Assembly (NCBI GenBank): GCA_963921795.1 | Contig: OY997653.1 | Span: 7,545,651 to 7,609,650, forward strand | DNA from: Nannobrachium achirus | Lineage: Eukaryota; Chordata; Actinopteri; Myctophiformes; Myctophidae | Length of the DNA stretch: 64,000 bases | Direction of reading: 5' to 3' | Translations under genes and position numbers: made by a program | Shown here: positions 1,483 to 45,600 of the stretch, in pieces | How the letters are laid out: the number at the start of each line of letters is the position of its first letter | Position numbering within the stretch: position 1 is the first letter of the stretch | The notes under the pieces: model-generated | Told to the model about the DNA's origin: nothing | Seen by the model: only the letters and a program-made list of their open reading frames with translations | Databases searched by the model: none

Positions 1483-4400
1483 CTGGAACACATGTTATTA
1501 ACATGTTATTAACACACACACAAGTCTGTCAGTCGATTACAATATTTAATCCGATTAATCGCATGGTTGTCCATAGTTAATCATGATTAATCACAAATTA
1601 ATCGCATAATTTTGTATCTGTTCTAAAACTACCTTAAATAGATATTAATACTCATATCAACATGGGAGAATACAAATACTTGCAAATGCTGCATGTTTAT
1701 TATTATTGGAATAATGACACATACTGTCCAGAACAGGCCTAACAAACATATGAGAAAATATCTGTTTCCATTAGGACAGATTTAATATTGAAAGGACCAC
1801 CGCTCATCTGCCAATAGATTTAGGTGAGGTGCTGGATGCCTGAAGAAGCTCTATGACCAAAAGCTTGCACTTTATTTAACTGAAAATAAATAACTTGATT
1901 TTGCACAGTTTTGAGTGTGCGGAGGCTCCCTTTAATTTTTCATTAGGACAGATTTTAAAAAAAAATGTTATACTTGGTATTTAATCACTCAAACCCTACT
2001 CAGAGCTAACGCGGACAGTTTATGATGGCAGATGGGCGGACCCTGCGAATCTCTCCGGGAGTCTCCGGCCAATAGCATGTGTTCTCCGCCCCCCACCCCC
2101 CCTCTGCTCCTCTGCTCAGCGCAGAGAACGCTGCTGCGTCACGACGTCAAAAAACCCTGCATATTATGATGTAGAGACACTGTGATGGCTCGTTGGAGGA
2201 GAAGTGTGGCACAAGGCATTATGCCAAGTTCCCTGGCTGCTGTTGTATGCAGGCGGTGGTCACTGACAGCGTGTTGGTACGGGGGACTGGGGACTGGAGC
2301 CCTGGGTATGTGCTCTTGTACAAGGTAGAACCGCTCCTGTTTTTTGGGAGCGTGTGTGTGTGTCTGGGGCTCGCGCTGTCTGCTGCCGCACGCTGTTCTC
2401 GGCCGTGCGCTGTGCGCGACGCCGTCAGCGGTAATGATTGTGGTTGTCCGCTCTTTGCTGCAAAATCTCCGCCGTTTTGTCGGTCTCATATAGCCCTGCT
2501 GCTAGCCTGGCCGCATCTCGACTCGCACTAACCGTTGTCAGTGCATTCGCTTCCTCACTCTCTAAAGTACGGAGCGCACCAAGGCTCAAACATCACTGCG
2601 TTAGGGTTACTATAGGGGTGCCTCGAATGAAAACAATATTTATAGGGGCGCCCTGAGACTAAAAGGTTTGGGAACCCCTAGACACACCCACGTTGCACTG
2701 AGTTCTACACCAAATCTCTCCACCAAAAATAGACAATCTAGAAGCTCACAAGTCACAACGCGTTGGGACCAGGTTAAAAACATGAGGTGACCAGGCTAAA
2801 TTATCATCATCATCATCATGTTATTTCTGTTTTCAAACACATTGAGGTCAGACGTCTCACCTGTGTTGTCTTCTGTCTCCAGCCTGTCTCTGTTCAGCTG
2901 TTCACCGTTGTCCTTAGAAACCACTAAGTCCTACGATAACAAACACACACCATGTACAGTAATTGTGATATAGAATGGCAGAGTAAGGCATTCATTATGA
3001 AATAAGTTAAAAAAAACAAGAGAAGAGATCTCTGTCCTTTAGTATACAGTATGTAATGTGATCCTCTGGAGTGAGAGTAGAAATATAGTTAATAGTTAAA
3101 TTACCTCACCAGGTTTACAGAACAACATGGTATTAAATAGTTAAAGATATATTAAAGGCCTAACATTATTTAACGCTTTAGATATTGAAAAATAGCAGAT
3201 ATACAAGCTCACATGTTTGCAAATCTTTGAATATACAGTATGTATTTTTTAAGCGAACATTTGTAACTTGTAACATTTTGCTTCTGGGTGGTCCCTGGAG
3301 CTAGATATTCTGAGATGGGGGGTCGGTGGCCAAATAAATATGAAAAGGTTTGAGAACCACTGACATAGTAGTCTCTCAAGAACAGACTAACTGAGCTCCA
3401 GTTAAGTGAAAAGGACCTTTTCTTTGACGATGGCTAAGCCAGATTGCTGACAGAAACATATGTTTTTCAAAAAACCTTAGGAGGATTCAAAAGACACTTA
3501 TAGAATCGGGTCAAAATTATAATTTTCACGATTTAAAAAAAATAGCAGATTTACAAGCTCGCAGCGCGGCACTCAGTGCCACGCTGTGAGCTTGTATATC
3601 TGGTATTTTTCAATAGTTAAAGCATAAAATAATGATACACAACGTTCTAAATGGGTTACAGAACAACATGGTATTAGGGTATTGGGTGGTAGGTAGGTAG
3701 GTACAGTATGTTGATATAATTACCTCATCAGTGAAAGGTTTACAGAACAACATGGCCTGGAAGTCTTCCAGACTGCAATCAATGCTGTCCAGATAGTCCA
3801 TCAACTCCACCCTGAAAATATATTTAAATTAATATAAAACACATTTATATGAATATAAAACAATCAACGCTGTCCAGATAGTCCATCAACTCCACCCTGA
3901 AAATATCATGTTTAAATTAATATAAAACACATTTATATGAATATAAAACAATAAATGGTGTCCAGATAGTCCATCAACGCCACCCTGAAAATACATTTAT
4001 ATCAAATAAATTTATATGGATATCACTCAAAGCTGTCAATAACTCTACCCAGAAAATATTATATTTATATTAATATAGTCCATCAACTCCTCTTCATTAA
4101 CAGGTGAAGACATTAGGGACATGAGGTCAGCAGTAGGGCTGTCACGATATGACATTTTACATGACGATTAATTGTCACTCAAATAATTGACGATTAACGA
4201 TTTAATTGTGTTTTTGTCGTTGATAATTACATTTCTGTTTGGCTTTTAGGCTTTGAAGTTGTACATGGTAGATATGACACATAACCTAAATATACAAAGA
4301 AATTACTGACATATTTGACAACTTACTACTTAAAAAATAACTTTGATAGTGGAAATAGCCGATCTACAAGCTCACACGCGTTGTGAGCTTGTAGATCTGC

Positions 4401-7400
4401 TATTTCCACTATTTTTGACTATTTTTTAAATATATGAACGTTTTTCAACATGGAAACGATTATGACGATTATGAAAAATAATCACGATTATGTCAAATAA
4501 TCCCGATTAGACGATTATGTAATAATTGTGACAGCCTTAGTCAGCAGCGCACACCTTGTGGCGTGCTCTGCTTGCACACAAGTAGGCCATGTGTGGCTTG
4601 CTTGAGCGTGAGGCGCAAGTTGGGTTCTAGCAGGGTGTGCTTTAGGAGGGGCGTGGCTATCTTGTGATGCTTCTGAAGTCTGAACACTTCTTCTTCATGT
4701 GATTTATTTTTGGCAAGCTCAAGAAGCTCATGTCCCAAGTATCCCTGCGGTTGCACATGACCGTTGACAGCCAATAGCATAATCCGAGGCACCCCTACAT
4801 TATAATTTTCACTCCACGCACCTTATCTTTATAGCATATTGTCGTTGTCGGGTGAAAACCTTGTATGTCCAAAACCGTTCGTTTTGTATTTATCATCTAT
4901 AAAATGTACTAAACTAGTGAAAGCAGCCGATCTACAAGCACACAAAAGCACACATCGCGAGGCGTTGTGTGCTTGTAGATCGGCTGTTTTCACTAGTTTT
5001 GTGCAACAGTCTTGTATGATGAAGCAGGGCTTTGCTTTACCAAAAGAAGTACACATTTGAAACTTGGAGATACAAGGTTTTTAGTGATTATGTTGCGAGG
5101 AAAATGTTGAGATAATAGCCATGTTGGTTAGAACTGACTGAAAATAACGTTGTACTTCAAGTTTAAAATGATACTAAATATTTTTTCAAGTGTCTAAATG
5201 AATACCAAATATTATCAAATGATCTCGCGGCACCCCTGGACTGCCGTCACAGCACCCCAGGGTGCCCCGTCACCCACTTTGAAAACCCCTGCACTATACT
5301 GTATGAAGTTTGAGTTCATGTATAGCACACAAACCTCTCCAATTTCAGTGAGTGTGTGTGCGTGCGCGTGCATATGCGATTATGCAAGTGTGTGTGTGTG
5401 TGTGTGTGTGTGTGTGTGTGTGTGTGTGTGTGTGTGTGTGTGTGTTAGTGTATCTTACTTCCCCAGCAGGCTGATGTTCTGTGAGAGAGCAGCGCTCTCG
5501 TTCATTATGGACTCCATCAGTATGAAGGGGTCTTCAGAGACCAGCCCCCCCGAGGGCTTGTTGATCTGTTGTAGAGAGCTGCTGGATGAGGGCTTGTTGA
5601 TCTGTAGAGAGCTGCTAGATGAGGGCTTGTTGATTTGTAGAGAGCTGCTAGATGAGGGCTTGTTGATCTGTAGAGAGCTGCTAGATGAGGGCTTGTTGAT
5701 CTGTTGTAGAGAGCTGCTGGATGAGGGCTTGTTGATCTGTTGTAGAGAGCTACTAGATGAGGGCTTGTTGATCTGCAGACCGGACTCCAGGACTGTCAGG
5801 ATTACAAAACCTAAGTTAACGATTAAGGGCGGATTCACACTGCAGTCCGATTGATTTGAACTGTTGCCTGGTCTCCGCTGACCAGTATTCACATTGGCCA
5901 AGATTCTTCTGTGCCTGGACTCCCTAGAGTACACTTCATTCAACTGTAATTGTATTTGTGTGCCTCCCGGGGGCGCTGTTGACTATGGGGCTTTGGGAGA
6001 TAGAAAACGTCATGTCACAGAAGAAGAGTATCTTGTCAGAATGTAGAGCGAATATTAAAGTTTTACTGTGTTCCTGACGTTATCTTGAGTTGTAACAATA
6101 ACAGAACAACAATACACAACCAAAAGCAGTTTGTGCTTACTGTCTTTGAAACATCACAATGTAACGCCGTCTGTAATCATCGCACCACAGTAACGTCACT
6201 GTTGCATCCTTGATATCTTAATAGTGACGTCGCGGATCAATCCTTGTTATTTTCATCACAGCAGAAGCGACACCACTTCCTTGGTTTATGGAACGGTAGC
6301 TTCACATTGCAGCGCACCGTTCTCAAGGACGCATCATGCAGACTCTAGACCAGGGGTTCCCAAACTTTTTTGTCTCAGGGCACCCCATGAATATTTGTTT
6401 TAATCCGAGGCACCCTTTCATTATAATTTTCATTCACAGCACCTTATATTTATAGCATTATCATTGTTGTCGGGTGGAAACCTTGTATGTCCAAAACCGT
6501 TCGTTTTGCATTTATCATCTATAAAATTAACTAAACTAGTGAAAACAGCATATCTACAAGCACACAACGCCTCGCATCGTTGTGTGCTTGTAGATCGGCT
6601 GTTTTCACTAGTTTTGTGCAACAGTCTTGTATGATGAAGCAGGGCTTTGCTTTACCAAAAGACGTACAGCGTACACATTTGAAACTTGGAGATACGAGGT
6701 TTCCGCCCGACAGTGACGATATTTTAGTGATTATGTTGCGACGGAAACATTGAGATAACAGCCATTTTGGTAGAACTGACTGAAAATAACTTTGTACTTC
6801 AAGCTTAAAATGATACTAAATATTTTTTCAAGTGTCCAAATAAATTCCAACTATTATCAAATGATCTCGTGGCACCCCTGGAATGCTGTCGCGGCACCCC
6901 AGGGTGCCCCGTCACCCACTTTGAAGACCCCTGCTCTAGACTACCTCCGGAGGTGGTCTCGGGGCCGGAGTTTCTGAGGACAGTACGCATGCTTCACACT
7001 GTCAAAACATCTGCCAAGTAGCCTCGAGAACGCACTTGAGACCGCAGTGTGAATCCACCGATTAACTGTCATACAAACCGTTAAATAAAAACCATTTGGT
7101 TGTCTTTCTGAAATTACGTTTCTTGTGAATTGTGTAAATCTCAAAGAAACATGTATTAATGTCAGGCCGCGATGGGTGGAGTCGGGGGGGAAGCGAAGGT
7201 CGCTTCACTTGGATTCTTCCAACTGGGGCGCAGATACCGAGGTGACCGTTCACATTATTTGCGTCGCCCCGTTCACGCCACGCGTCGTTTCGTCTTTGCG
7301 TTCACTTTGTATGTAATCCAGGGTTCCCACATATTTTTACCAATTAATTTCCAAAACTTTTCCAGAATATTTAACCCAATTTCCAGGACTATATAACAAT

Positions 7401-45257: not shown

Positions 45258-45600
45258 CCCTGTCCTTCCCAGCACCAGTAGAATGACCCTGTCCTTCCCA
45301 GCACCAGGAGAATGACCCTGTCCTCCCACCAGGAGAATGACCCTGTCCTCCCCAGCACCAGGAGACACTGAGGAGACTGACCTTCATCCTGTCCCCCCCA
45401 ACACCAGGAGAATGACCTTGTCCCCCCAACACCAGGACCCTGTCCTCCCCAACACCAGGAGAATGACTCTGTCCTCCTCAACACCAGGAGACACTGAGGA
45501 GACTGACCCTCAGCCTGTCCTCCCCAACACCAAGAGAATGACCCTGTCCCACCCGACACCAGGCGAATGATTCTGTCCTCCCCAGCACCAGGACCCTGAC
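45190..45600. repeat. Tandem copies of the ccdc40 3' coding end
   Basis: About twelve imperfect units of 26-50 bp with CCAGCACCAGGAGAATGACC and CTGTCCTCCCCAACACCAGG. The first lies in the terminal exon; two units repeat the longer GAGACACTGAGGAGACTGAC. Confidence 0.92.

Follow-up and report, generated by a model that had tools for sequence, protein, structure and literature searches.

Mirage-like tandem arrays at exon edges of hsf2 and ccdc40, probably by-products of random small duplications

Canestro et al. (2002) reportedly described "mirages" in the Adh3 gene of amphioxus. The available parts of PMC3087553 present mirages as tandem repeats lying over exon-intron boundaries, found in amphioxus Adh3 and in the globin genes BflGb6 and BflGb9. 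According to the same parts, these repeats affect either boundary, have variable units, are spliced regularly as judged by reverse transcription-polymerase chain reaction (RT-PCR), and are unstable in length. Here, we examine comparable arrays in two neighbouring genes, hsf2 and ccdc40, within a window of 64,000 nucleotides (the whole stretch of DNA analyzed, G000:C16:7545651-7609650 of a 1.66-Gb assembly).

Eleven of the 55 modelled junctions of the two genes have an intron-side copy within 2.5 kb, and 9 of 55 have one within 400 bp. A junction copy was defined as matching at least 5 bp on either side of the junction with a score of at least 16, on the intron side and no more than 2.5 kb away. 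The copied junctions comprise seven donors and four acceptors: the donors of exons 1, 3 and 6 and the acceptors of exons 9 and 11 in hsf2, and the acceptors of exons 4 and 13 and the donors of exons 6, 8, 12 and 13 in ccdc40, where exon 13 is affected at both ends. These include all ten exons named in a sequence-only reading of the window, which had counted at least ten such junctions and had also placed an array at the coding end of ccdc40 exon 18, where we find one too. Nearest offsets or periods vary between 25 bp and about 120 bp, and local exon sequence is part of the units; the arrays therefore do not form one repeat family, in agreement with that reading.

The exons were placed by hand from the sequence, with checks of GT/AG sites and reading frame. 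The ccdc40 model, on the plus strand, has 17 coding exons and a 5' untranslated region (5'UTR) exon and matches CCDC40 chains among solved structures (best E 4.1e-135); its weakest calls are the donor of the 5'UTR exon and the acceptor of exon 2. The hsf2 model, on the minus strand, has 11 exons and 437 residues and is incomplete at the 3' end, where the last exon or exons are missing; its N-terminal 222 residues match HSF2 among solved structures (best E 2.1e-58). When the exon-side sites are used, the CCDC40 alignment is gap-free at the joins of exons 6-7, 8-9, 12-13 and 13-14, and the model is collinear with CCDC40, with the copies sitting in introns that separate successive exons.

These arrays are probably minisatellites whose unit happens to span an exon edge, for the most part products of random small tandem duplications, and the copies are likely by-products rather than working sites. 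We infer a mutational route in which introns acquire tandem duplications from tens of bp up to about 120 bp long, some of them enlarging through slippage or unequal exchange. A duplication over an exon edge would leave one edge intact and place the extra copy, with its splice site, on the intron side; such duplications would be tolerated because the exon-side edge remains intact, and the protein would stay the same provided that the exon-side site is the one used in RNA. Duplications within exons would persist mainly if in frame, and array growth would halt at the exon. Where local array density is high, junction copies should then be common.

Whether junction copies exceed chance in this gene pair depends on the null chosen. 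On coverage, there is no clear excess: arrays from Tandem Repeats Finder (TRF) lie over 6 of the 55 junctions, one of them through the coding array of ccdc40 exon 3, against 3.3-4.2 expected (p 0.11-0.24), or 3.3-3.9 (p 0.11-0.19) for arrays with a period of at least 20. TRF coverage by itself overlooks diverged or interrupted copies, so an ungapped local-copy search was adopted. By this search, 12/55 junctions and, in the introns of these genes, 231/1386 randomly placed positions are touched by local copies, a result that goes against the sequence-only reading's expectation that chance duplications should rarely straddle splice sites. Intron-side coverage within 250 bp is 0.08-0.22 without a sharp peak at the junction, and drops to 0.04-0.09 at 25-60 bp into the exon. 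The second null counts only outermost copies, since the outermost copy is where a functional junction must lie. It gives 1.34 expected against the 9 junctions within 400 bp (p 7e-6) and 2.90 against the 11 within 2.5 kb (p 1.2e-4). Neutral simulations with random duplications, slippage and insertions, in which exons are kept unchanged so that their edges act as barriers and no junction is targeted, themselves exceed this null: the junction/outermost-copy ratio is 1.5-4.8 in these runs and the junction/coverage ratio 0.19-0.76. In the pair, the two ratios are 6.7 and about 1.9, and the residual excess is about 2.4-3 times the neutral number, for a locus picked post hoc as striking. The outcome that was to count against the earlier claim, arrays equally frequent at random intron positions, accordingly holds for coverage and fails for outermost copies.

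Other genes of the genome link the phenomenon to array density. Junctions were inferred around chaperonin, kinesin, myosin and dynein gene hits in 49 stretches (46 loci); the splice sites were located near profile or tblastn hits by means of a weight matrix built by hand. Copies were found at 14 of 333 junctions, at least two of the 333 (in cct3) looking like copies themselves, against 6.0 expected by outermost copy and 24.9 by coverage. The resulting ratios, 2.3 and 0.56, are covered by the neutral simulation without junction targeting. Among the 14 hits, six are in cct3, and three, in myosin paralogues, concern one and the same exon end and hence are not independent. When loci are grouped by rising array density, with the junction arrays themselves left out of the measure, the hits are 0/196, 3/75, 2/29 and 9/33 (Spearman 0.52, p 2e-4, 46 loci); in this wider sample, the straddled splice sites fall where introns are rich in arrays. 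In cct3, located 0.35-0.36 Mb from the end of its contig (C2), 61% of sampled intron positions lie in local copies, and L054, which is also among the densest loci and lies 0.47 Mb into C8, has copies at two of three junctions. An earlier, smaller sample gave local copies at 11/195 junctions and 614/3760 deep intron positions; without cct3, it gave 2/181 junctions against 2.5 expected by outermost copy.

Several points weigh against an origin by random duplication alone. The pair stands above the other genes (Fisher p 0.002 against the 14/333), and its outermost-copy rate peaks at the junction, between about -25 and +40 bp. Its 9 hits within 400 bp compare with simulated means of 2.9-3.8 per 54 junctions (P 0.0015-0.0123), a count that matched neutral simulations seldom reach, and the simulation parameters were chosen by hand. 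The cct3 gene has copies at 6 of 14 junctions against 0.69 by the outermost-copy null, while L038, also rich in arrays, has none at 12. Moreover, the control genes belong to conserved families, with splice sites taken from profile hits rather than RNA.

A genuine mutational bias towards exon edges, with duplications actively seeded there by, for example, paused polymerase, R-loops or repair, could therefore lie behind the excess in the pair and in cct3. As a general account, such hot spots are unlikely: the other 47 stretches have copies at 8/319 junctions against 5.3 (outermost copy) and 16.6 (coverage), within the neutral range, and the loci of lowest array density have none. The pattern is also not confined to splice sites, since arrays also straddle the start codon of hsf2 and the stop codon of ccdc40, and the hsf2/ccdc40 pair was chosen after the fact. 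The targeted break repair or R-loops suggested by the sequence-only reading are neither shown nor needed across the whole sample. That exon edges in some genes are true birth places of arrays, beyond tolerance and local array density, is an equally doubtful proposition.

Maintenance of the copies by selection as spare splice sites, also raised by that reading, is very improbable. Nearly all listed copies retain GT or AG, as such sites would, though the search demanded close similarity around the splice site and so favours copies that retain them. Yet all 18 tested uses of copied sites introduce a stop that the normal model does not have, in 16 cases well before the end and in two, at hsf2 exon 11, at residue 424 of the incomplete model. 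Of the 25 nearest junction copies, 6 are offset by a multiple of three and keep codon phase, whereas units of the coding arrays measure 33 or 33/36 bp. Because of these stops and phases, the copies are not spare sites yielding the normal protein. At the ccdc40 exon 6 donor, nine further GT-bearing copies follow downstream, and the reading frame requires the first donor. Assemblies have a known weakness at tandem arrays, but an artefact is the least probable explanation of all, as substitutions and indels distinguish the copies, an insertion showing an 8-bp target duplication splits one of the arrays, and three myosin paralogues on three contigs (L037, L047 and L056) each have a similar array at one shared exon end, with the exon breakpoint in common.

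The shared myosin breakpoint implies that such arrays can be old, or can recur at one place. A single mobile family was also considered and rejected, given that unit lengths and content differ between junctions. Two arrays, those of ccdc40 exon 12 and hsf2 exon 3, are interrupted by inserted sequence, which leaves the copies apart from the exon (Table 1). The hsf2 exon 3 donor stands about 1.26 kb from its copies in intron 3, and an 81-nt inverted repeat pair is located in the intervening sequence. The insertion in ccdc40 intron 12 is presumably hAT-like.

Table 1. Arrays, junction copies and insertion in hsf2 and ccdc40 (positions in the window)
Feature	Position	Strand	Details
hsf2 exon 11 acceptor array	3776..4010	-	unit about 88 bp; real exon 3724-3811
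hsf2 exon 10 in-frame coding array	5552..5775	-	33/36 bp unit, inside exon 5459-5792
hsf2 exon 9 acceptor array	7993..8095	-	41 bp unit; real exon 7903-8003
hsf2 exon 6 donor and two copies	12132..12404	-	exon 12399-12460; copies 105 and 235 bp away, holding about 5 bp of exon
hsf2 exon 3 donor and two copies	16216..17580	-	exon 17570-17700; copies 16251-16287 and 16216-16252
hsf2 exon 1 donor and one copy	19815..19914	-	exon end 19898; copy 78 bp away
Array over hsf2 start codon	19948..20066	-	two copies, unit about 62 bp
ccdc40 exon 3 in-frame coding array	25783..25926	+	33 bp unit; exon 25787-25956
ccdc40 exon 4 acceptor and two upstream copies	26862..27092	+	exon 27070-27153; copies 76 and 196 bp away
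ccdc40 exon 6 donor array	29550..29827	+	25 bp unit, 11 copies; real exon 29412-29569
ccdc40 exon 8 donor array	31406..31660	+	34 bp unit; real exon 31314-31435
Insertion, 506 bp, hAT-like	37708..38213	.	8-bp target duplication, inverted ends; 8 bp after ccdc40 exon 12 donor, splits array
ccdc40 exon 12 donor copies	38213..38541	+	43 bp unit; exon 37486-37699
ccdc40 exon 13 acceptor and one upstream copy	39426..39521	+	exon 39497-39666; copy 57 bp away
ccdc40 exon 13 donor array	39628..39891	+	41 bp unit with variants
Array over ccdc40 stop codon, exon 18 coding end	45229..45593	+	unit about 29 bp; stop codon 45255-45257

The duplicated start region of hsf2 creates an upstream open frame of 12 codons, a near-repeat of the protein's first residues. 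Elsewhere in the window, positions 3101-3600 are part of a dispersed repeat with 7693 first-look candidates in the genome, 40 of which were scored.

The survey of other genes also yielded intact, intronless, full-length CCT-like and HSP60-like genes at eight loci (L009-L016, on contigs C14, C1, C19, C5, C13, C10, C6 and C9). They resemble HSP60 and seven of the eight subunits of the CCT chaperonin, with subunit names assigned tentatively from sequence rather than from a database hit, and intron-bearing relatives are also present. Relative to these, dN/dS is 0.09-0.21 at dS 0.45-1.21, and the loci are therefore probably old functional retrogenes. Additionally, G000:C9:28768035-28771826 and C22:20659519-20663364 each carry three consecutive intronless kinesin-head matches, with one open-frame length each (1677 and 1796 aa) and perhaps three motor domains per frame. 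Of the other long intronless open frames, at G000:C15:54233798, C18:10973245, C10:23592237 and C12:52390753, one of 3873 aa contains a dynein heavy chain match, and those of 1888, 1879 and 1381 aa contain SNF2 matches.

Tandem duplications that include splice signals appear in the available parts of reports on the potato RdRp gene (PMC4974935), where the duplication crosses an intron-exon boundary, and on Drosophila (PMC2891723). As described there, the outcome is a new intron or intron position, whereas here extra copies lie inside an existing intron. Myostatin-2 of Sparus aurata likewise has intronic tandem blocks, one at the 5' end of an intron (PMC3045353), and human long-period variable number tandem repeats are enriched near chromosome ends (PMC7608644); unlike here, the available parts of these two reports give no exon sequence in the unit. 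The arrays also differ from introner-type elements in that unit length and consensus vary by junction and the content is local exon sequence, a comparison made without a search for dispersed single units. Among the matches listed, titles and abstract openings held no junction-spanning array in a fish, and PMC3087553 was the sole direct match.

The closest likeness is to the amphioxus mirages. In both, the unit spans the exon-intron boundary (here at the 11 junctions, in two arrays that are now interrupted), acceptors and donors are both affected, and unit length varies by locus, from tens to about 160 bp there and over the range given above here. By these three features, the hsf2 and ccdc40 arrays appear to be an instance of mirages. 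They differ in occurring in another animal, in affecting 11 junctions within a single gene pair together with one start and one stop codon, and in having a frequency tied to array density; splicing by RT-PCR and length polymorphism are known for amphioxus, while the present case is read from the DNA of one assembly. With these arrays, mirages would be known beyond amphioxus, in an animal that is probably a ray-finned fish and in which about 4% of sampled junctions in other genes are affected, and their frequency would be linked to local minisatellite load. The arrays offer natural test cases of splice-site choice, such as the copies of the ccdc40 exon 6 donor. Such arrays are also plausible raw material for new introns, as the available text of PMC3087553 proposes for the amphioxus globin genes.

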